NCBI GenBank assembly: GCA_025024175.1
Contig: QCXZ01000138.1
Coordinates: 46,347,092 to 46,411,091, forward strand
Source of the DNA: Rhyzopertha dominica
Lineage: Eukaryota; Arthropoda; Insecta; Coleoptera; Bostrichidae
DNA length: 64,000 nucleotides
Direction: 5' to 3'
Shown: positions 3,652 to 64,000 of the stretch, in pieces
How positions within the stretch are numbered: the first letter of the stretch is position 1
How the letters are laid out: each line of letters begins with the position of its first letter
Made by a program: the position numbers and the translations under genes
The notes under the pieces: generated by a model
Told to the model about the DNA's origin: nothing
What the model saw: only the letters and a program-made list of their open reading frames with translations
Databases searched by the model: none

Positions 3652-6600
3652 ATTGAACTCTGCATAAAAATATTGAGCGACATACTCAATTTGTTGTTCC
3701 AATTCAAGGAGAACAACATTGTGTACAATGATATAAATGAAATAATGCTCTCAGTGCTTAGGACTGTCATACAGAGCCATATAAATATGGACAGGGAAAG
3801 TCCCTACGCAGTAAGAAGCCACCACACTATAACTAGTCAAATTTTTATAACTTTTTCTGCCTTTGTAGGGTAATTTAGTAGCTGTGATGATTGATATTTT
3901 CCGACAGATGACTTCCTACCATTACGAAGACTACATAAAACACTTTGCCACAAGAACTGATATTTTGGACTTCCTCATGGAGATATTAGTGGTCTTCAAA
4001 GAACTAGTGAATCAATCTGTCTTCCCTTCGGATTGGTGTGAAATGATAATGCTCCAGAACAACATAATCCTCAAATCTCTGAGATTCTTCTCCCACACAA
4101 TTCGTGATTATTTTTTCGAACGCTTCGACCATCAAGCCTGGAGCAACTTCTTCCACTGTGCGATTGCTTTCATGACGCAACCGGCTCTGCAGCTCGAAAC
4201 CTTCTCCCCCAATAAACGCGCCAGAATCGTAAAACGTTACGGAGACATGAGAAGAGAAACTGGTTTCGAAATCCGCTCGATGTGGTTCAACCTTGGCCAG
4301 CACAAGGTTCAATTTGTTCCCAGCCTGGTTGGATCCATTCTGGAGATGACCTTGATCCCGGAAACTGAGCTCAGGAAGGCCACGATTCCAATTTTCTTCG
4401 ACATGATGCAGTGCGAGTTTTACTCTTCGAAGTACCTGGTTGAAAGTTTCGGCGATACCAAAAGGGATTCCTCACACATCAAGGGGAATTTTAACGATTT
4501 CGAAAATGAGATGATTGCTAAACTGGACATGTTGATTGAAGGTGGAAGGGGAGATGAGGCCTTCAAGGATCTTTTCCATGAGATCATGATGAATTTGTGC
4601 AAGAATCACACCACTATGAAAGATGAAGGCGTGAAGTTTGTTAGTATCGTGACCAGGCTGATTGAGAGGCTTTTGGAATACAGGTGCATCATAAATGATG
4701 AGAACAAGGACAACAGAATGAGCTGTACTGTTAGTTTGTTGGTAAGTTACTGTAAAACATGATTTGGTAGGCTATCTTACTAGCTTATCCTGATCTCCTA
4801 TGAAATGTTAAAGTGTAAGTAAAGACTCGTTTATGTAGGTATCTCTTTCTATCTCACTTTAGTTTCTGACAAAAAAAGATAAAGCTGGTTCGTTCGTCAA
4901 GGCTAGATCTTTTTTGAAAAATGATTCCACTGCAGCATTGACAAGCGTATGATTAAAAAACGATTTTTTCAGTGGCCATAGTTCAAATAAAAATTATATA
5001 CTTTTAACATTTATTACTATAAAATACATATAAATCATTCTCATCTTCAAAGTCATTATCTGTGCTGTCATCACTGTCTTCAACACATGTACTAATAATA
5101 ATAATAATAAATTTTTTAAGAGGGATACGAAGTACCGAAATTTAGAGCTTTACGGGATTTACTGTACATGGCTCAGTTTTGCACCGATTTTGACAAGCGA
5201 GGACTTAGTCGAAAGATGAAAGAACGTTCTACAGTTTGGCTTGATTACATTTCTGATAAATGTCACAGCTGATCGTTAAGAAATTATTGAAATTGGCTAA
5301 TTATATCCACATTTGATAGCCACATAAATCGCTTTCAACAACAGTTAATGAAAATTTAATCAAGCCAAACTGTAGTTCAATGTTTCCATTACGTATGTTT
5401 CAAATCTGGACGGGATTGAAAAAAGAACAATTTAGTTATGTTAAACCCAGTAATGGTCTACACGCCGATATTTTTGGTGTTCAGCGGCCCGTCGCTATCC
5501 CCACTATTTTCTTCTGGCAGCTGCCAGGCCGGTGTTGTCGATGAGCGACGGGAACCGGAAATGTCCGAGCGTGAACAATCACTTCATGATTTGGTTACTT
5601 GTTTTGGCGCGATATTACAAATCTAGCCAACTTTTGTAAAGTCAATATGGGTAAAAGCGAAAACAAATGTACGGCAAGGATCACACACGAAAAAATGAAG
5701 GAAACGTCACAAACAAAAAAATAGCTTACGAAGTTTGTACAAGGAATTCTATAATATATAGACGATAGCGATATAAGTATAATACAAATCCAACATATTA
5801 AATTATAATGCAGACACTTATTTAAGATCGTGCAACTGCCTATAAGTCGCAATAGTGAAATGAATACCGGTAATATAATATTATTGAACAAATAAGTCGT
5901 TATAGCGTATTTATTCCCAAAAACTCTAAATGTTATTTCCTAAAAATGGTTGGCCTTGCTATTGTTATGTTCTGCACTTTCAGCTGCATTTTGTACTGAC
6001 AGTTTACTAAGTCAGCTTTTAAACTATTTGAGCAAAAATGTTGCGTTCTTCCACATGTACCTGTATACTGTATTAAACAAAGTTCTCAAGTATTATATTT
6101 ATTTAGTTAATAATCTCTACAATATGAATATTTTACTGTTATAATGGGATCGGTTTTGAAGTTTAATGAGACCTCATCCGCAAGCCACTTGTTATAATTT
6201 AATAAAATATACCTACACATACATAATATAACCATTAATACAACTTAAAAATAATTATTCCTGTCATTAACTTTCTTTTTAGCAATATGTTGGACACGTT
6301 TCGAAAATGTCATTAATTAATAACTTAGGTAAAAGATTAGTACTGTGTGTGTTTAAAGTTGCCTTATTGAGATATTTCCAATAAGTTTAATGATTGCCTG
6401 AAGATAGAAAATTTTAACAGTGGTATTAAATTAAAAATTGTGTTCTGTGTATCTAAAAGATATTTCACAGATAATGATTAATTTTGTGCCATGAGATCTT
6501 CATTTATTGTCGTTTTAAATTTCTGTATGTTTCCAAAGTTACAGTATTTGCATCTTAACTTGAATATTCAATTTTTGTCTGGCTTCTAAACTATATTATC

Positions 6601-9600
6601 TTTATTAATTAAAAGAATTTTGCCTAATGTTATTTATTTTTGTTACCTAGTAAATGCAAAAGAATATTTTATTTGACTAAATTAATTTTTATATACATTT
6701 ATTACGTAGTATTATTTAATACATTACCAATTTGTTTTATTACATGTAATAATAATTCTTGATTACATTTAGTCTTATGTTAAGGTAGTTATATGGGTTT
6801 ATTTAAATTATTAGACAAAATAGCTGAAGTATATTGCATTGGTTGCAGTGCGTAATAGTATGGATATTTTAGTGGTAGAGAAAATTCTCTTTGATAACAA
6901 AGTCTGGAAGCTGGAAAGATGTGGAATATACGAATTAAGATGCAACAATTGGCAGAGTCTATAGGGATTTTATTTAGAAATGTTAAAATGAGAGTAAAAG
7001 AACATCTCAAGTTATGAAGATTGCTATAAAATTATTCGAGTTATATCTAAACGTCTTGGGATACAAGACATAATTTTGAAATAATACCGATACTGAAATT
7101 TTACATATTCAGCAAAAGTAGGTATTAAACTTACTAGAAATTTTAAAGATAAAAACACGATCTTGATGAGGCTTTTTTGAGAGTTTGACGAACAGGCTCA
7201 ATACTGCGATAAGAAATTTTCTAATAGTTATATGGTCAAAATTTAAGTTACTTGCAGAAATAATTAAGTTCCATTAATAACTGTTTTGTGTTTAATGGCT
7301 TAGTTATTATTTATATCATGCTTTATTCAAATGTAGATGTGATTTAAGGAAGAGGTCTCATCATAACTTTGATTAAAAATAAGGATCGCAACTTGTTGAT
7401 TGTTCAAGCTTCAGAAATAGGGGGTATTCGACCTTTTGGTTTAATAAATTAATTAAACCCTTTTTTCAGTGCCAAGCTTTAGTCTTTGTTTAAGACGTCA
7501 TCAGGGCTTCTACTATAAATTTGCAATGGACTAAGCATATAATAACAATAATAGGTTTTACGTAAATCTTACCGAAAGTGAAATTAATTTTAAATGAGTT
7601 TTATGTTGTGAATGATTTTCCCAATATAGGTACCATGTAATTTCTTCTTCTTTCTGTGTTTCAGTAGTTCGTATTAACAAGACATAGATGGATTAATCGT
7701 AGAATATTAAAATACAGCTTAAAATTGTATCTACGTTTAAATTCAACACAACTCAACTGAAAAGACAGAAATATAGACAGTGTAAATATGTCGGCGTCAA
7801 AAATCACAGCAACATTTTCTAGTATTTTATATACAGTTAATTATTCAAAATCTGTTCAGATTTGAAAGTTCTGATAAGTTTTTTTTTTGTTCTGTTGAAA
7901 TTAAACGTACAATTTTAAGCTGTACTTTAATGTTCTGCGATTAATTCATCTGTTTCTTCTTAATACGAACTACTGAAACACAGGAAGAAGAAGATATATA
8001 TTGGGAAAATAATTAACAACATAAAACTCCTTCAAATTAATCTCACTTTCAATAAGATTTACGTAAAACTTATTATTGTTATTATATGTTTACTCTATTG
8101 TAAATTTATTGTAGAAGTTCTGATGATGTCTTAAATAAAGACGAAAGCTTGGCACTGAGAAAAGAGTTTACTTAATTTATTAAACCAAAAGGTCGAATAC
8201 ACCCTATTTCTGAAGCTTGGTCTCATTATATATAGATATCGAAACTGGTCGCACCAAAACATTAAAATGAGTTAACACTATAACACGTCTTGTTATACAT
8301 ACTTATCTTGCAATGATATGAAGCTCCAAAGTTGGGTATATTTTACCATTTACCAAACCAAAATACGATTTAATAAGAATCATGGGCAATCCTTTTAGTT
8401 TAAGGCTAATTAGGTTTGTATTTTTACTTCACTATTACCGCATTGCCCTAAATAACATGTAATATGTGTGTAACAATGCATATTACATTGTCTTATCAGA
8501 AATACTACAGAAGAAACCAGAACGGGACAAATATAGTTCATTCGAAGGCCTTATTAAAATCATTTCCGAGTTTTTACATCGGTCAAATTACCATTTTTAT
8601 ATGTGGATTTATGAAATTAATGTTTTGATAACAACGGTCGCATTTTGTTTAAGATTTAATAATTTTTGTTGGTTAGTTTCAAAAACTACCTACGCACTCG
8701 AAGGGTTCAAACACTGATTACCGCTGGCGAGTACCCTGTAGGTAGAAATAGAAATGCAAATGTTACACAAAAAAAACAGCCACCCTCCGGTAAGTAATTT
8801 CATTACTATTGGTAATAAATGAAATACGCAATTTTATGTAAGCGAGTCTTTGACAACAGGTTAGCAACCTTCCAATAAAAATGGAAAACAAATACTCATG
8901 TAGGTACAACATTTTCAGTGATGCATCGAAATATGCTACAGAAAATGTGCGTTTAAAAATAAAGTTGCATACTGCGCTGAAATATTTAACATTGTATGTT
9001 TGACAATATATATTTAGAAAATATCAGTATTCATAAACTTCGATTTGATGTATTACAAATTTCTGTATAGAAAGCCTTAGAGATTTCGCAGTAATGACTA
9101 ATTTATGATCAAGCAGTTTGAGAATATTAATTTTAATATTAAAAAAGTAAATTAATTAGTGTTAAAAATAGCCATTTTAGTAGTGGAGCGTGTAGCACAA
9201 CAGTCCGAAATATGGCTAGGCATCAGCAAAAAAAATGAGAACCACTATAATAATACTGATCCTGTAGACGCGCCACAGATATTCGTCCACATGCCAAAAC
9301 CGGCCAGTGCAGCGCTATGATTTTACGGCGAGAAGTATTCCCCTGACTTCACTACACCCCTACTGTTGTATATTGGTGGGGACGCTCAGCGTCTTGAAAC
9401 GCGAATTCACGGCAACGCGCGGTCTTCGTATCCCTCTTAACAGATACACTAAGCACAAATTAAGTAAATAAAAATTCGAACAATTAATAAATTAAGAAAT
9501 CATTTAAACGATAGATACATATTATGTGGTAGACTAAAATTTTATTTATTTATTAATAATTTTATACTGATGATGTTAAATTTTTAAACTCAGTGGTTGG

Positions 9601-12600
9601 TATTTGTAGAGTTATTACCTGAAATGAAAATAAAACCTAACCTATTAAAAAAATCATACTTTTAATATGTGGCGCCACCTATCACATAAAAACTTAAATT
9701 GGCTTGTATTCTTAGTGGACAATGCAACATTTTTGTGACATTTATGCATTTAAATAAGATTTTATTTTTGTCAGCAAGTCGTTAATCTGTCAAATGTCAA
9801 AATTGGACAGAAATGTATGTTTGCTTAAACAGTTTTATGGAAGAAAGGATAAGGATGACACTCAGTGTTATGAAGTCAGCAGTACAGTTTTAGAACAATG
9901 GTTTGTGTGTTTTACTTAAAAAATAATCACATTTTCATGTATTGATTATTAATGGATTAATTAATTTGTATCCTTCAGAATCGCCTGGGCAGTTTTTTTT
10001 TAATGGAANCTCAATATTGCCTTTTATTTGACAAACAAATTGTAGCCTTCTAGAGGAAAGTCCAACATTATAATAGTAATTTGCAATAATTTAAATGTCA
10101 TATTAAAAGAGCTTAAATTTTGTGATCATTATTATTTATATTTTAAGGATAATAAATTGCAAGTTTGTTTTGAGATTATTGCTGATTGCAAGATTAAAAA
10201 TTTTTGTTTGTAGTATCTTTGGTAACATTTTCTTCATTGTTAATTTGGACTTGTAGGATTTTTATTCCGAAATACATCGCAAAGAGATGTACATACGGTA
10301 CGTGAACAAACTGTGTGATCTGCATCTGGAGTGTGACAACTTCACTGAAGCAGCATACACTCTGCAGTTGCACACAAAACTTCTGCAATGGTCTGACGAT
10401 GTATTATCATCGTTGCTGAAGAGTAATCGATATCCAGAAGCACAGACCCACAGACAACTCAAGGAGTCTTTATATTACAGCATAATTGAACACTACAACA
10501 AGGGAAAGGTAGGTTTGTGTTCACACAGCTTAGATGATGTAAGTGTTTTGAGCTCTTTGGTTATCCTTTCATTCTTAGATGTGGGAGTGTGCCTTGGAAA
10601 AATGCCAAGAACTCGCTAAGCAATGTGAGGAAGAAACCTTTGATTATGAACAGCTCAGCATACTGCATAAACAGATGGCCACGTTTTATGAGAATATAAT
10701 GAAGAACGTTCGTCCAAAACCGGAATATTTTCGAGTGGGATATTACGGCAGGGGTTTCCCGCAATTCTTGCAAAATAAGGTTTTTATATACAGGGGTAAG
10801 GAGTACGAACGTTTGGGGGACTTTAACAGCAGAATCATGAATGAATTCCCGAAAGCTGAACTGTTGTGCAAGCTTACGCCACCGGGGGAAGATATTAAAG
10901 AATCAGAGAAACAATGTATCCTTTTTTTTCTGATTAGCATTTGTATAGAACTGAAACTCTTAAAGGATAACGTTTATTGACAACTCAAAATTGTTTTTTT
11001 GAATACTAGGTTTTGTATGTTGAACAGTATTACTGGAACCATGACAGCTTACTTTCCTTAACAATTTCCTCAGATATACAAATAAACAAAGTGGATCCCA
11101 TAATGGAAGAGAGAAAGCAACGTTTCTCTGGAAAGCCAGTAGCTGAACAAATCCTCAGCTACTACAAAGTAAACCACATCCAAAAATTCACGTATTCACG
11201 TCCCTTTACAAGAAAAGATCCATATTTAGAAAGTGAGAATGAATTTGCTAGCTTATGGTTGGAGAGAACTGTTTTGGTAACAACTTCACCCCTCCCTGGT
11301 ATTTTGAGGTGGTTTCCAGTCAACGAGCAACTTACTGAGGTCACAGAAATTTCTCCTCTGCACAATGCTATTGAGACAATGGAAAAGAGTAACAGAAACT
11401 TGAGGGACTCCATCATTACATATAAAAGAGATATTACTACATCTTTGAATCCCCTGAGCCTGATTCTGACAGGTTAGTGCCAAATTTTATATTATTATGT
11501 GTGTGAGTGAAAGTGCATTTATTGTGTTAGGAATTTTGGATGCTGCCGTCATGGGAGGTATAAAAAACTACGAGGACGCGTTTTTTATTCCTGAATATGA
11601 ACGACACCATCCAGAAGATGCTGTTCTCATCCGTCGCCTGAAAGATCTAATAGCGGATCAAATTCCCTTGCTAGACATATGTGTCAAAATCCACAAGCAA
11701 CGTGCCACTGGTAATTTGCTGCCTCTTCAGGAGAGACTGGAAGACTGCTTTGCAGTCATGCAGAAAAATGTAGAGGAAAAATATGGAAAGAAGGTGAGAT
11801 ACGAGAGCTGAAAATATTGTTTGTTTTTTCTATTGTACCACATTTACAGACTTGTGACATCAAGGTCAACAGTCAAGTGACTATGAGGAGACATTTCAGT
11901 ATTCAGAATGATTCAAGATTGTCTGAAATTTCACAAATGACTGAGTGAGTACAGCTTTTGGTTTGCTTTTTTTTATTGTGCTGATGGTGGGTCAGTGTTC
12001 CTTCTTTGTGTTTTAAAAAACAGTAGCTCAATTGGGTTTACCAGATGTTCGTGACGGGGTACAGGGTCATCGTATCCTCTATTGATTACAGTGTATTTAA
12101 TCACAGTTTTGTAAGAAACTAACGTTAATGCTATTAATATTACAGCAATAATCATCTTCAATAATTTGATTTCAAAATGTCTTGTCTTTCGGTATCCGGC
12201 CGGATATTGAGTTACTATCCAGTATTTGGCCGGATATCGAATAGTTACTGTGTATTCGCTTCATCTCTACTTTATACTGTTATAATTCCAAAAATTTTTG
12301 TAATATGATTAGTTTCAATAATTTTAGAATGAAAGTAAGAATTTAGGATGGCAATGCCATCTGTCAGCATTACACTGACATGATAACAAAGCCACCTAGC
12401 TGCAAAACCAGTTTTATNCCGTGTTGTCTACACTAGACCTAAACTGCACTGATGAGCTGTAATGACAGCGAAATAGTACTATCTGCAGTTGGTTGAGGTG
12501 TAGACAGCACAGCATAGACATGCATTTTAATTTTAGAATGGATCAAAAGTAGGTGTTAATATCAAGCAAATCAAAATGGAATACCGTTTACCCATTTTAT

Positions 12601-24785: not shown

Positions 24786-26620
24786 ATAATAATAATAATA
24801 ATAATAATAGGTCTTCATTGAGTAATCATATACACAGGCGAAGTCTAGCATAACTATTCTACTTAACCTGTGTACAGAAATCAGTAAACTTAAAGGTAAG
24901 ATAACAGAAAAAAAGAGAACCTATCAATGATAAACGTAAAAACTATTGTAGCTCGACAAGTATATTCTTGATAGCCTTACGGAAGCTGCTGACATTGAAA
25001 CGCACTAAATCCTTACAAAAGCGGTTATGTAATGTTACAGCGTTATACGTAAATGACCTGGAAAATAATGACGTACAATACTTAGGCATATCGAGTGACG
25101 AGGAGGTGAAGCGCAACCCAAGCTGGTGAACACTACTTCTAAATTTCAATTTTTCTCTTAGATATGACGGAAAATCTGTAAGCAGTACTCTATGCACCAG
25201 AGAAAGCAACTGTAAGCGGTAGACATTAGACATTTTCAGCCATTTAAGTTCATTGATCTTGGCAGAAACATGATCAAACTTTCTTCAATAGCTAAACTCA
25301 GGTGTGATTTAACCAACTGAGTTATTACAGCAGGCGCAAAGCATATGACCTTACATTTATCAGCATTTAGTTTAAGATTGTGGTCCATGCTGTATTTAGA
25401 GATGGAGTCGAGATCGCAATTAAGCTGCTCGCATGCGGTAGTTGTGTCGCACATCTTAAAGGATAGGTACAGTTGGGTGTCATCAGCATATCCTAGAATA
25501 TTAGAAAATTTAACACGGCTAAATATATCTAAAGTATAGATTAAATATAGAAGGGGTCCCAGTACTGACCCTTGGGGCACACCACTAGTAACTGGCACCT
25601 TATCCGAAAGAAGCCCATTAACTCGAACTACTTGGAAGCGGTCTTTAAAGTAAGACACGAAAAATCTACATGCGATTGCATCAAGTCCAAAGTAAGACAA
25701 TTTGGCACACATTAGCTCATGATCGATTGTGTCAAACGCTTTAGAGAAATCAAGTAAAACGAGAGCCGTGCAGTTGCCCTTATCACGCTCTCTTATTATA
25801 TCGTCCAGGACTTTCAACAGTACCGTGGTAGTACTTTGATTTTTCTGAAAACCTGATTGGAACGGTGAAATTATATTATTCTCTAATGCGTAATTGTAAA
25901 GTTGCAGATGTACAACTTTCTCGATAATTTTTACAAATGTAGGTACTAAACTTATGGGACGAAGGTCACTAAGTTAACCGGATTGTTTATTTTTGGAATG
26001 GGAATAATAACGGAGGTTTTCCATGATACTGGGAAGTAACCGCTTTCGAGGCAACAATTAACTATATGTGTGATATGAGGAGCAAGTTTTGGCAAGCAAA
26101 AATTGATCATCTTCGCAGAAATGTCATCCCACCCAGGACTGGAAAGCTTAAGTTTAGATATTATATTTTTAATATCGTCTATGTCAGGAAGTACAAAAGA
26201 GAATACCGAGCCTTCCTTGTATTTAGTTGAAGTATAATGAGTAGTGGCTGGACGTCGATCATTAAGGCTTGAGAATACAGAACTAAAGTAATGATTAATG
26301 TCATTAGGATTGCGAAGCTGCAAAGGGATATCTGTACAGCGATTATTTTTAATTCCTAAGTGCTTTACAGTCCTCCAAAGCAGACCAGGGTCGCGAGATC
26401 GCTCGGCCGCACAGATGTAAGACTGTTTCTCACTCCTAATTGCTGAAACCGTCACGTTACGCATGATACAATAGTAATTCCAGTCTAGTGGGTCCTTAGT
26501 TCTTTTAAACTTTTAAACTATATGTCAAGAGAAACATAGGAAGGCATTTGTCCCACTAGTTTTGATGTCTTTCCGCAACTTTTTAGAGGAATGCTCCATT
26601 GTTTTGTTAAACCATTCGAC
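24786..26620 (-). mobile_element. 5'-truncated non-LTR retrotransposon (reverse transcriptase region)
   Basis: Minus-strand frames at 26464-25952, then 25817-25236 and 25233-24943, cover most of a non-LTR reverse transcriptase. Motifs in order are KLKLSSPGWDDISAKM, LSDLRPISLVP, LLDFSKAFDTIDHELM, TSGVPQGSVLGPLLYLIY and the catalytic YADDTQLYLSF, ending FRKAIKNILVELQ. A single-base shift near 25975 separates NNPVN from LSDLRPIS, and there are further breaks near 25235. The endonuclease domain is missing, as in 5'-truncated insertions. The 3' end carries an ATT-type microsatellite tail (24786-24810). The motifs suggest the CR1/Jockey group; the exact clade is uncertain. Confidence 0.88.
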
Positions 26621-44216: not shown

Positions 44217-46434
44217 CTAAACAGTATCGTGGACTAGAAGCTGTTCCATCGTTGTAATGGACGTCGTCGAATATTTTCTTTTTCCCATAGCAAAGGGCGA
44301 TGCTGGATTCGTTATGAAATAAAATTTGCCTCTAGCGTTCCAAGGAGTGTTCTCTCCAAAAATTATTTCTTGCCTCTTTGAACACTTGCCTTTTAGATAA
44401 TCATTCCAGGATTGACAGCTAGTCGCCTTGAAATTATCGGAATTTACAGACTCTATGAAGTAAAGGTTCGATCTGGCGTGGTAACAGTTTTCTGAAATCA
44501 AAGAGATAATTTTAGTATTGGCAGAAAAGGGTGAATGATGGTGCTCGAATCATCTAGCCTATGTGTTTTTCTAAAATAGTACATAATTTTCTAGTTTTTT
44601 TTTAATTGTTATTCTTATATATATCCTGAAATACGGAGGTAAATTAGGATGTGGTTTAGCTTGGTCGTTTACAATTAGTAGAGGTGAAGATTGAAGCATA
44701 CAAGAAGATGAATACATAGACAGTAACAGGTTTCTCAAAATGAGATAAAGCCATATATTTAAAGTGAATATTTAAAGCAAAAGATAGTACAAGAAAAGCA
44801 CATTTAGTTGCACGAGCACTCCAAGAAAACAACAGTCATTGCAGAAATGAATGGGTTATAAAACAATAGATAGTACCAACGGCTTTTTGAATAGTGAACT
44901 TGATATAAGATATATGAGAAGATACTAAAAGGTTTAAAACAAGAGAAAGGGAAGGTGTTGAACATGAATAAAGGACTTTATGTATTAAGATTAAGTCTGA
45001 AAAAATTCCGTCGGTTTGCAGAAGAAAATTGACTAATTTAATAACGATTTCTGCGTTTATATTGAAATTAAAGTGTGGCCCACTATTTTCGTTCGTGACA
45101 TATTAACAATATAACAAGAAGAAAGAGAAACACAAAATTTAATTAAAAAAAAACTTAAAAAGTGAATTTACAGCAAAGGATTTTGGAACAGTCAAACACT
45201 TCCTGGGAACGGAAACAGAAAGGGACCAAAAAGAACTGAACATAACAAAAGAAATGACAGATTAAGAAGATGTTAGAAAAGTTTAACTGGAAGACTGTAA
45301 AGGAGCCAAATCGGCGATCATAAAAGGATTTTGAGGTAAAGTTAATGAAGAAGATTAATGTCTTTGAGTACAGGGTACGTATATAAAAGCAAACAATAGT
45401 TTGGCAGACAAGTTTACTAAAAGTTTAACGAATGGACATTTCAGTGATCTAAGAAACTCTTTAAGTTCAATAGTTTAGTGTCACGTCATGAAAACGATTT
45501 TTCTTTGAAAAATGATGATCGTGATCACATTTTATGTGTGAAGCCACAAAGCAGAACAAAAATGGTAACAGTGTATGCATTTATATATGTGCAATAAAAT
45601 ATAATTAAAGTTTTGAAGCTCTAGTGAGTTTTTTTAAGTGACTAACCTGCGAAATGTTTTCTACTCACCGTCTTCTGTTAAAGGAGGACATCCAGGCTGT
45701 TTAGTCCCCCCATTGGGATAAAAATCTACATGCCCTATAGGCGCTATAAACCCATAATGTCCTATATCAGTGTGGACGACATCGACGAATTCTGCATCGT
45801 CTTTGCACAACCTGAAGTTCTGAGTAACCTCTTTCCTCTCGAAAAGTGGCCCCGCAGGATCAGTGGCAGTAATCCTTCCTACTTTCCTGCGAATTTTCCC
45901 AAAAACGTGTTTTCCCGCAAACCCTGCTACGTGGGCTCCCAACGAATGCGCGATTATGTGGATATTCTTAACGTTTATCTTCGAAGCCATGAAGAAATCC
46001 GCTATGAACTCCCCTACAGGTTTCGAATTCGCTGCAGATTCGTGGAAACTCTTGTTGGCTGGTCCTGACCAGTCGATGTAGAAAATGTTATAGGAACCCT
46101 TCCTGAAGTATGCGTCTCTCAAGGGATTGTACCAGTACGTTTCTTCGTTGGAGGTCCACCCGTGAATGAAGCACTTGGTTGGGAGGTCTCTGTACATATT
46201 GACGGTTTTCACGGTTTCCTCAGTTAGGATTTTCCCGTTCTTGTCTCCCCTCTTTTGAAATAAGCGAAATCTGACGTCCGTTTTTTTAGCATCGTGCGAA
46301 TTGAAATCTATTGGCTTCAGGTCCTTGTATTCCTTCGGATAATCGATCTTCGCTGAAAGCACGAAGTTTTTGGTGAATATCAACTGGTTGTTCATTTTCT
46401 TTGTAGTTGAAAATGACAGTCGAAAAGAATTCAT
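44217..46434 (-). CDS. Pancreatic-type (neutral) lipase paralogue 1
   Basis: This is an alpha/beta-hydrolase of the pancreatic lipase/phospholipase A1 family, normally secreted and acting on acyl esters. Two exons, 45669-46434 and 44217-44491, join in phase 1 (GTGAGT donor, TTGATTTCAG acceptor) to give about 346 residues. The HGW block is present. The nucleophile elbow reads AHSLGAH, with Ala replacing the usual first Gly. The acid residue is in ITATDPAGP and the catalytic His in ENCYHARSN. The C-terminus is longer than in its neighbour, including a Cys-containing segment (SCQSWNDYLKGKC). The part encoded by two exons in paralogue 2 is fused into one here. I find no signal peptide; the first exon is probably upstream and unrecognised, so the 46434 start is provisional. 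It is tandem with two other minus-strand lipases. Confidence 0.88.
44780..45479 (+). pseudogene. Ty1/copia pol relic inside lipase 1 intron
   Basis: The plus strand reads KAHLVARALQEN, then TAFLNSELD, FGTVKHFLGTETERD and finally LADKFTKSLTNGHFSDLRNSL. These match the copia reverse transcriptase and RNase H C-terminus in order. There are many stops. It is antisense to the lipase. Confidence 0.75.
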
Positions 46435-51230: not shown

Positions 51231-51528
51231 TTTAGCTGTAATTTTATTCTAAATCTAAATTACTTGGTAAAAAATTATCATCGTGAATATTATATTTGAG
51301 AATTGTCACTGTTAATGTCATATTTTTACAAAGTTGCCTTTTATTAACTTTAGCATTACTTCAGGATAGACTAAGTACTGCTTGAACATCAACAATTCCA
51401 AAAATATAGCAAAAACTCAATTGGTATCAATAGACAAAGGGTTACCATCTATGGATACCGAATTCTTTCAGTTTCACTGGAATCTACTGATGATATTCTT
51501 AAATAAATAATCTGCCCTGGTCAGTTCA

Positions 51529-51585
51529 CTCTCATCCTGCGACTAGTTTCGCCCTGTTGGGGCTCATCAGGCAGGGGTAGAGAGC
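51529..51585 (-). ncRNA. Hammerhead ribozyme, retrozyme copy A
   Basis: On the minus strand: stem I CUCUC and CCUGC, core CUGAUGA (51570-51564), stem II GCCC-CAACA-GGGC, then GAA. A minimal stem III AC-UA-GU and C17 (51541) follow, then stem I partner strands GCAGG and GAGAG. Stem I has an internal loop, as in natural type I ribozymes. Cleavage is predicted between 51541 and 51540. The two-base-pair stem III is typical of Penelope-linked and retrozyme hammerheads, which often act as dimers. Confidence 0.85.
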
Positions 51586-51811
51586 AAACTGACCATGGCA
51601 GACCGTCACCTATAACCGCGGCGGGCGGACTGGTTGAAAGGAGAATAGGAGGGCAGATGCCCTCAGGGTCATCTATGCGGAACTCTGCGAGCTAGGCGGT
51701 CTATAACTCTGATAGACACCTACCTAGTGCAGGTTCCTAGCGATGACGATGATTCCGGGGAGGCTCCCCGTATAGCGTTGATTAAATAAATAATCTGCCC
51801 TGGTCAGTTCA

Positions 51812-51868
51812 CTCTCACCCTGCGACTAGTTTCGCCCTGTTGGGGCTCATCAGGCAGGGGTAGAGAGC
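51812..51868 (-). ncRNA. Hammerhead ribozyme, retrozyme copy B
   Basis: This is a second copy exactly 283 bp from copy A, with the same core (CUGAUGA at 51853-51847), stem II and stem III. It differs only at one base in the stem I internal loop (GU for AU). Cleavage is predicted between 51824 and 51823. Cleavage at both copies would release a 283-nucleotide monomer. Confidence 0.85.
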
Positions 51869-52012
51869 AGGGCAGATTATTTATTTAATCAATCATCGCT
51901 AGGAACCTGCACTAGGTAGGTGTCTATCAGAGTTATAGACCGCCTAGCTCGCAGAGTTCCGCATAGATGGCACTGAGGGCATCTGCCCTCCTATTCTCCT
52001 GATGATATTCTT

Positions 52013-61874: not shown

Positions 61875-64000
61875 CAGGGTGTCCCTGAACATGTGGGCAA
61901 TATCTCGGGATCTGATAGCTGAGCTAAAAACATCACTATTTTACAGTATAACTTTTTTTGATATATCGTTCGCCTACTGAGATATTCACCCCTAAAGCTC
62001 TTTTGAAAAAATTGGTTTCTCCGAAATATCTTTTATACCGCTTGATATAATTTGATGAAATTTTCGCCATTAATATTTAAAATGGAGGCGGTCAGAATAG
62101 TGCAGACACAGTTTTTGTAATTGCACGGGGAAGTTGGGGGTAAACTACCCTTCACCGTTTTTTTCTCTTAATTTTAAGGCGGGTAAGATTTTTTCCCCGA
62201 AATAGGCGTTTTTCAATTCTCTTAAACTTAAGAAGAAAAAAAGGTACTCTTTATTCATTACCCTAAAGTTAACCGTTTTCGAGAAAAATGTACTTGAATA
62301 ACATGGTTATAATTATTGTATTTATTAAATAATTACATAAATATAACATTACGAAGAACACTTAAAAACTACATGGAGCTACAAAAAAAAATTAAGAAGC
62401 TTCAACATGAGCTCCTCCAACTTCAATGCATTTTCGGGCCCGACGAATTAAAGACTGCCGGATTCTCCAAAACACGGCAGCGTTATTACGTATTTCATCA
62501 CAGTAAAATACTATACGTTCTATTAGATTATCCCTCGTTTCTACAGGAGTAGAGTAAACTAAGTTTTTCAGGTGCCCCCACAAATAGAAATCGAGAGGGT
62601 TAAAATCTGGTGATCGAGGAGGCCAAGCAACAGGTCCTCCTCGACCTATCCATCGATTTGGATACGCATTATTTAAAAATTGTCGCACAGCAATACTAAG
62701 GTGGGGTGGTGCGCCATCATGCATGAACCACATGTTTTTTCTTGTTGCTAATGGAACGTCTTCTAAAAGCTGTTGTAAGTTATTTTGAAGGAACTGCAAA
62801 TAGAGTTCCCCATTTAATCTTGGAGGTAGCACATATGGTCCTATTAAATGGTCCCCTATGATTCCCGCCCAAACATTAACAGACTGAAACTGGAACTGGT
62901 GTCTTGCAACCACTGTGGAATTAGGGTTTTCGTCCGCCCAAACATGTAAATTGTGTGAATTTATTACACCGTTTTTCGTGAAACCAGCCTCATCTGAATA
63001 AAGAATCGAACTAATAAAATCCCTGTTATTTGTGTGCTGTTCTAAGACCCAATTTGAAAATTCCACTCTAGCATGAAAATCTTCATGACTTAGAGCATGT
63101 ACCTTTTGAACATGAAAAGGGTGCAGTAATTGTTCTTGAAAAATTCTGGAAATAGTGTTTTTGGACACATTGTGTTGCACCGCAAGTTTTCTAATACTAT
63201 TGGTAGGATCCGCAGCCACGCTATCCAAAACGTTCTCCTCTAGGACCACTGTGCGTACTCTTCTTTGGACGCCACCGTTCAAGCTATCTTTTACAAATTT
63301 TCCTAATAATTACAAATTGATATAAACATGCCTTTATGGATAATTTTATGTCCCACCTGTCTCCCTTAAACGTCTATCAACCCGTTCAAAAGTTTTCCGA
63401 TCAGGAATCCTACGGTCAGGAAATCGTTCTGCGTACAACCTCACAGCTTCTGTACTATTACTAAGGGCTAGACCATACACTAAATGCATGTCAGCATATT
63501 CAGGAAATGAATATTCCATTTTAAAATGATTGTTGGATAACAATCACACCAGGAAAATTAAATGGAGTGACAGCTAATAATATTTTTTAGCGCCTACTAT
63601 AAAAATTAAATTGCTCGTGTGGACGCAAGTGAAAATGTGAACCATGTAATTCAACAGCATTTTTCTCGAAAACGGTTAACATTAGGGTAATGAATAAAGA
63701 GTACCTTTTTTTCTTCTTAAGTTTGATAGAATTGAAGAACGCCTATTTCGGGGAAAAAATCTTACCCGCCTTAAAATTAAGAGAAAAAAACGGTGAAGGG
63801 TAGTTTACCCCCAACTTCCCCGTGCAGTTACAAAAACTGTGCCTGCACTATTCTAACCGCCTGCATTATAAATATTAATGGCGAAAATTTCATCAAATTA
63901 TATCAGGCGGTATAAAAGATATTTCGGAGAAACCAATTTTTTCAAAAGAGCTTTAGGGGTGAATATCTCAGTAGGCGGACGTTATATCAAAAAAAGTTAT
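61875..64000 (-). mobile_element. Mariner-type element with 416-bp terminal inverted repeats, cut by window end
   Basis: The left terminus begins CAGGGTGTCCC after TATA, the usual TA target. The arm 61875-62290 is mirrored by 63658-64000 with few differences; about 70 bp of the right arm fall outside the window. The transposase described at 62392-63519 lies between the arms, transcribed on the minus strand. Near-identical arms and an unbroken transposase suggest recent mobility. Confidence 0.88.
62392..63519 (-). CDS. IS630-Tc1-mariner transposase with N-terminal DUF4817 helix-turn-helix
   Basis: It cuts and pastes the surrounding element. Two exons, 63357-63519 and 62392-63302, join in phase 1 over a 54-bp intron (GTGGGA..TTATTAG) to give about 357 residues. 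The start MEYSFPEYADM opens the DUF4817 domain (PDRKTFERVDRRLRETG); an ATG 24 bp upstream is also in frame. A second helix-turn-helix follows (KLAVQHNVSKNTISRIF). The catalytic triad is Asp in LYSDEAGF, Asp in MHDGAPPH and Asp in PPRSPDFNPLDFYLWG, with 36 residues between the last two by my count, so not the classic DD34D. Without the intron the frame is interrupted. There are no internal stops. Confidence 0.9.

Follow-up and report, generated by a model that had tools for sequence, protein, structure and literature searches.

A 498-bp insert on the minus strand (51501-51998), here called element A, likely represents a single insertion of a non-autonomous, non-coding, retrozyme-like retroelement, whichever enzyme carried it. 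This conclusion overlaps with the alternative of a LINE carrier considered below; the carrier that we modestly favor is a Penelope-like element (PLE). Element A lies in a 64-kb stretch of the Rhyzopertha dominica genome, the whole of which is termed the window, and consists of about 1.3 direct units of 283 bp plus a head-to-head inverted partial copy. The enzyme that mobilizes animal retrozymes is not settled, with PLEs standing only as a candidate in the excerpted text of PMC7229834. Because element A retains its junctions (the start of copying, 1.3 rounds of the unit, the inverted copy, the skipped hairpin, and the duplication), it serves as a record of the mechanism.

Anatomy of the insert

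Element A is bounded by a 14-bp target site duplication, CTGATGATATTCTT, whose left copy (51487-51500) is identical to the right copy (51999-52012). A 14-bp flank match of this kind was found in 2 of 20,000 random 498-bp blocks of the window. The direct part (51501-51869) spans 369 nt, equal to 283 + 86, the second unit being partial (86 nt). The direct copies themselves extend for 88 bp (51499-51586 and 51782-51869) at a spacing of 283 bp and are 99% identical, with a single mismatch (51535/51818).

The inverted partial copy (51868-51998, plus strand) reproduces 51641-51802 without 51747-51777 and is joined head to head, meaning that the direct and inverted parts abut at their 5' ends, as defined by the hammerhead RNA. 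Two inverted repeats, I1 (108 nt, 98%) and I2 (28 nt, 96%), make up this copy, which differs from the direct copy by substitutions at 51667 and 51669. The 31-nt segment 51747-51777, present in the direct copy and missing from the inverted one, contains a GC hairpin, predicted at -10.4 kcal/mol for the RNA strand. With three differences within it, element A is either not a perfectly fresh insert or the product of error-prone copying. Stem I of the hammerhead has an inner and an outer helix, whose axes have coordinate sums of 103677 and 103679; the inverted copy, with an axis sum of 103670, is centered 7 nt away from the first and 9 nt from the second, and by simple arithmetic a random offset of 9 nt or less in a 283-nt circle is expected in 19 of 283 positions, or about 7%. 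The insert starts at a different point of the unit at each end, 51501 and 51641, a separation of 140 nt.

At each end, 2 nt are common to the target and the unit (TT at 51499-51500 and CT at 51999-52000), bases 51999-52000 being compatible with both the unit and the duplication, and CA at 51868-51869 is common to the direct and inverted parts. These 2-nt overlaps are little and may have arisen by chance. The G+C content is 54.4% in the monomer and 52.2% in the insert, versus 33.7% in the window, and the longest stop-to-stop open reading frame (ORF) overlapping element A encodes 62 amino acids (aa). No other copy was detected in the 64-kb window by blastn.

A sequence-only reading of this stretch had described direct minus-strand hammerhead cores 283 bp apart in a 498-bp block with a 14-bp flanking duplication, together with an inverted partial copy that had lost its GC hairpin. 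The duplication proved exact, the inverted copy and its missing segment are seen in the alignment, and the cores are borne out by the repeats, by a structural descriptor, and by sub-threshold covariance matches.

Two type I hammerheads on the minus strand

Hammerhead 2 (51803-51870, minus strand), which lies upstream in the RNA, has its core at 51853-51824 and a predicted cleavage site at 51824/51823; hammerhead 1 (51520-51587, minus strand), which lies downstream, has its core at 51570-51541 and a predicted cleavage site at 51541/51540. As the sequence-only reading had it, the interval between the predicted sites is 283 nt, and it defines a monomer (51541-51823) whose RNA runs from 51823 to 51541. 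Judged from the sequence, both hammerheads are of type I topology with the conserved core intact.

The descriptor, which specifies CUGANGA, a stem II of at least 3 bp, GAA, the A15.1-U16.1 pair, H17, and a stem I of at least 4 bp, has three sites in the 64-kb window: the two hammerheads of element A and one at 12449 (plus strand). By chance, 4 such sites occurred in 150 windows (mean, 0.027) simulated with the first-order Markov statistics of the real one. The descriptor assigns hammerhead 2 a stem I of 6 bp and hammerhead 1 a stem I of 5 bp, each with a stem II of 4 bp and a stem III of 1 bp. As RNA, both have an internal loop in stem I, a 5-nt loop on the 4-bp stem II, and a stem III of just one A-U pair, on which the palindromic sequence CUAG forms a tetraloop.

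A hammerhead covariance model, the check put forward in the sequence-only reading, recognized the pair at sub-threshold scores. In E-value mode over the whole window, RF02275 (Hammerhead_HH9) matched 51803-51870 (minus strand) with 35.4 bits (E = 3.2e-5) and 51520-51587 (minus strand) with 33.4 bits (E = 1.5e-4), and the model aligned end to end with both hammerheads; but its gathering score is 52, so that both matches are sub-threshold, and the whole window contains no Rfam match at gathering score. Nine weak matches of other Rfam families (1,100 bases; E up to 10), of which the best was mir-3160 (E = 0.0087; 30.7 bits versus a gathering score of 80), were attributed to the long stem I and to chance.

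Predicted folding of the RNA

The 283-nt RNA is predicted to fold with a free energy of -124.9 kcal/mol (z = -6.78) when linear and -120.3 kcal/mol when circular, the latter lying below all of 200 shuffled sequences (mean, -82.9; lowest, -101.5). The antisense 283-nt circle (-115.3 kcal/mol) is close to the sense circle in stability. The fold of 51509-51603, across which stem I of hammerhead 1 is predicted to reach outwards, attains -54.1 kcal/mol (z = -9.18), and hammerhead 2 by itself (51803-51870) has a z score of -3.53.

In the minimum-energy folds, stems I and II are present and stem III is absent, the core bases being paired with the stem III side. A one-base-pair helix III with a palindromic tetraloop cap is also described for the axolotl hammerhead HHR_Amex1 (PMC7229834, as excerpted), which resembles element A in its single pair (A-U in element A) and palindromic loop (CUAG), a likeness by description only between an amphibian retrozyme with a 330-bp repeat and a beetle element of 283 bp. 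By this analogy, the one-pair stem III and palindromic loop make dimer action possible, and the ribozymes of element A may work best as dimers. The two-strand co-fold of hammerhead 2 reaches -56.0 versus twice -26.6 for the single strand, a small gain that is no proof of dimer action.

Comparison with known retrozymes

Metazoan non-LTR retrozymes, which the excerpted text of PMC7229834 characterizes by type I hammerheads, short tandem units, circles of about 170 to 400 nt, and target duplications that exceed 4 bp when present, have insects named among their hosts. Element A shares with them the type I hammerheads, a duplication longer than 4 bp, and strong predicted self-pairing. Its 283-nt monomer falls inside the size range of their circles, its tandem 283-bp unit with two hammerheads lies within the range of 150 to 450 bp and at least two hammerheads, and its longest overlapping ORF agrees with the absence of coding capacity. 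The retrozyme-like anatomy advanced in the sequence-only reading, with type I hammerheads and a very short stem III, fits.

The G+C content of the monomer counts against this assignment, exceeding the values of below 50% or below 45% given for metazoan retrozymes. Because this value (54%) lies outside the published range, element A would be filed, on its sequence features, as a variant working like a metazoan non-LTR retrozyme and not as a plain member. Such retrozymes are already known, insects included, and it is in its G+C content and its inverted copy that element A departs from them; the main text of PMC7229834 describes no inverted copies. The plant LTR retrozymes, with type III hammerheads and a 4-bp duplication, differ from element A in both respects (type I and 14 bp).

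The open-licence literature that we searched contained no beetle retrozyme, although one may be in print elsewhere. In its excerpted parts, a review of beetle satellites (PMC6309819) names hammerheads from salamanders, schistosomes, and crickets and mentions none for beetles. Judged by title, further papers retrieved on hammerheads and satellite DNA deal with cave crickets, and none of those on Penelope-like elements and twin priming deals with retrozymes. A 21-base piece of element A matched no stretch in viral contigs and a 20-base piece matched none in prokaryotic contigs; since these collections are viral and prokaryotic, the zero matches are uninformative about animals.

Carrier of element A

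A PLE is the most probable carrier, given that direct and head-to-head inverted copies inside a short duplication are on record for some PLE inserts. The sequence-only reading had gone further and presented metazoan retrozymes as dependent on Penelope-like machinery, which holds as a published hypothesis (PLEs are "a strong candidate" in the Discussion of PMC7229834) and was overstated as an established fact. In the quoted parts of PMC3846280, one insert of the rotifer Adineta vaga has, between the copies of a 9-bp duplication, two pseudo-LTRs (pLTRs) in direct orientation with an inverted one next to them, and two more rotifer inserts with inverted pLTRs have duplications of 10 and 8 bp; some other inserts have direct pLTRs only or no duplication. 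Element A, with its direct part, its head-to-head inverted partial copy, and its short duplication, has the layout of these inserts at retrozyme scale, a parallel that the sequence-only reading does not draw. From palindromes at head-to-head junctions, the authors of that study infer self-priming by PLEs, which in their view requires an antisense template.

The biochemistry of a purified PLE from the green anole (PAc; PMC11167929) points in the same direction in several respects. This enzyme, which cleaves AT-rich DNA, extends each of the two target strands and begins copying at an internal position of the RNA, and element A likewise has hammerheads, an AT-rich target, and a start inside the RNA. 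Other features tell against a PLE. The two starts of element A, 140 nt apart, are ill-suited to simple PLE-style priming on both strands, given that the purified enzyme uses a common start place in the RNA for both. In addition, no PLE protein was present among the 10 ORFs scanned against Pfam, of the 24 ORFs of at least 120 aa in the window, the sole reverse transcriptase being of the general RVT_1 type.

That reverse transcriptase (25236-25973; E = 2e-30) bears on the alternative that survives best, in which the same type of retrozyme was mobilized by a LINE-type enzyme through target-primed reverse transcription and twin priming. We regard this as rather unlikely. Target duplications of 13 to 14 bp are common for LINEs. 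Those in the window (14 bp in element A) exceed the 8 to 10 bp of the quoted Adineta vaga PLE inserts (PMC3846280), and LINEs as well as PLEs are mentioned as possible carriers in the excerpted text of PMC7229834. However, the insert terminates 3' in AU-rich sequence with no poly-A tail, its direct-plus-inverted, head-to-head layout is the one documented for PLEs in the quoted parts of PMC3846280, and an inverted copy centered near a hammerhead stem is not predicted by twin priming.

A distinctly less probable account makes element A a fragment of a PLE, namely a pLTR with its hammerhead, instead of a retrozyme. The pLTRs of PLEs do bear type I hammerheads, in direct and in inverted arrangements (PMC11167929 and PMC3846280, as quoted), but their motifs are described as minimal, lacking helix III or loop-loop contacts, whereas those of element A fit the canonical HH9 model from end to end. 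Also unlike PLEs, element A has no ORF for a reverse transcriptase or GIY-YIG domain (none overlapping it exceeds 62 aa), has its own bounding duplication, and starts at different points at its two ends.

An origin of element A from stray satellite DNA or from a rearrangement, its hammerheads being incidental, is very unlikely. Some animal hammerheads are known from satellites, such as pDo500 of Dolichopoda cave crickets, a family with one hammerhead per repeat (PMC2837043, as excerpted), and the two compare, by description, as insect repeats containing a hammerhead. Element A is represented by about 1.3 copies inside an exact target duplication, with no second copy in the window and no tandem array reported at the locus, and so falls short of the long array of a satellite. 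Also very unlikely is an origin of the inverted copy as an assembly or library artifact: inverted repeats can originate in amplified libraries, but the right duplication sits past the inverted copy, which, with two substitutions and without 31 nt, is no plain mirror of the neighboring sequence.

Proposed mechanism of insertion

If element A is a retrozyme insertion moved by a PLE, its anatomy can be read as a series of steps. A multimeric minus-strand transcript would fold its type I hammerheads and cut itself into 283-nt monomers, and a monomer would then be ligated into a circle. A borrowed reverse transcriptase, most likely Penelope-like, would prime at a nicked target and, starting cDNA synthesis in an AU-rich internal stretch of the RNA (near 51501), copy about 1.3 units. 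The 369-nt direct sequence passes the cleavage position twice, as expected of a copy made from either a circle or an uncut multimer, in keeping with the multimeric or circular template suggested in the sequence-only reading. For the purified PLE, cleavage is unneeded in vitro: templates with an inactivated hammerhead were inserted no less well than intact ones, the dominant substrate was RNA that had not been processed, and no reads started or ended at the cleavage site (PMC11167929).

The inverted copy could have been produced in either of two ways. In the first, the cDNA would stop soon after stem I, whose two sides are complementary, and its end would snap back on the copied stem and copy itself, skipping a few nucleotides at the fold, to yield the head-to-head inverted copy, with the hairpin also skipped. 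The snapped-back first cDNA would itself serve as the antisense template for self-priming. Alternatively, the second nicked target strand would also prime a cDNA, and the joining of the two cDNAs would yield the same inverted layout, again with the hairpin skipped. By either route, a final joining would leave the 14-bp duplication.

The position of the inverted-copy axis, 7 to 9 nt from that of stem I, suggests snap-back self-priming of the cDNA, and this closeness together with the separated starts favors snap-back over twin priming, a choice that one insert cannot decide. We tentatively propose that the hammerhead is doubly used, such that stem I, once copied into cDNA, self-primes the complementary strand and gives rise to a head-to-head repeat like those in Penelope-like inserts. 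If true, the ribozyme fold would be tied directly to integration, and element A would be physical evidence for the movement of animal retrozymes by enzymes of PLEs. Applied to other genomes, the proposal predicts that inverted copies of retrozymes should center near stem I of the hammerhead.

A second hammerhead element and other hammerhead-like stretches

The third descriptor site, which the sequence-only reading of element A does not mention, belongs to element B (12332-12527, plus strand), a single copy of 196 bp situated between 13-bp direct repeats, TAATTTTAGAATG (12319-12331 and 12528-12540). Its hammerhead (12433-12503, plus strand) matches HH9 with 28 bits (E = 0.0081; gathering score, 52) and, by the descriptor, combines a stem II of 5 bp with a stem I of 7 bp and a palindromic sequence, AUAGUACUAU, in stem III; a further complementary stretch lies outside stem I. 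The fold of this hammerhead is unremarkable (z = -1.59), 14 of 200 shuffled sequences being equally good. Element B shows no similarity to element A by blastn, and its G+C content of 41.3% lies within the low range of metazoan retrozymes.

Of 3,000 anchors drawn at random from the window, 2.2% have a repeat of at least 13 bp in a like position, so the duplication of element B is likely, not certain. Direct repeats of at least 13 bp spaced 100 to 600 bp apart form 16 runs in the window, three of them from element A; such repeats are not rare, so that the 14-bp repeat of element A counts for more than the 13-bp one flanking element B. That two dissimilar hammerhead elements with duplications of 14 and 13 bp occur within 64 kb suggests that the genome may hold many.

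A palindromic element of about 815 bp (7405-8219) has outer arms of 189 nt that are 90% complementary and carries a CTGATGA-hairpin-GAAA motif at 8120 (plus strand) and a TAAA variant at 7504 (minus strand), one near each end. We did not count it as a hammerhead, as stems I and III could not be drawn and the strict descriptor was silent; the motifs are perhaps a decayed hammerhead, or chance. Among viral contigs, the hammerhead core pattern occurs in two IMG/VR stretches, L001 (6687-6742) and L002 (near 2966), with the same CGAAACTAGTC letters. Rfam matches on L001 (Hammerhead_3, 31.4 bits; RAGATH-1, 25.5 bits) are both below gathering score. The two stretches, with a hammerhead of another stem III, were set aside.

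Surroundings in the window

Element A is located about 0.8 kb past the last exon match (52848) of a minus-strand lipase gene, in the same orientation. For the lipase at 45661-46434, the top match has 99% identity, and the best named relatives are beetle proteins (from Oryctes, Leptinotarsa, Onthophagus, and others), both among the best 120 of 177 matches. The DOCK-like protein at 3869-4762 has beetle matches in Aromia (77% identity, with 63% of the query covered) and Leptinotarsa (80% identity, with 61% covered) among the best 120 of 160 matches, within which some named non-insect matches rank higher through longer coverage. The neighboring proteins make a beetle the likely host. The tblastn matches to DOCK stop at 11474; a frame extending to 11811 and another from 14555 resemble what we take to be the following parts of DOCK, and if these frames do belong to it, element B is intronic and in the sense orientation.

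Other mobile-element sequences are present in the window. A LINE-like reverse transcriptase, a possible alternative carrier, occupies 25236-26512 (minus strand) in two overlapping frames, the first being the Pfam RVT_1 match given above and the second (25952-26512) having no Pfam match. A stop-to-stop frame of 305 aa at 62392-63309 (minus strand) resembles a Tc/mariner-type transposase, with matches to HTH_Tnp_Tc3_2 (28.1 bits) and DDE_3 (27.7 bits) that are both slightly under the Pfam cut-offs.
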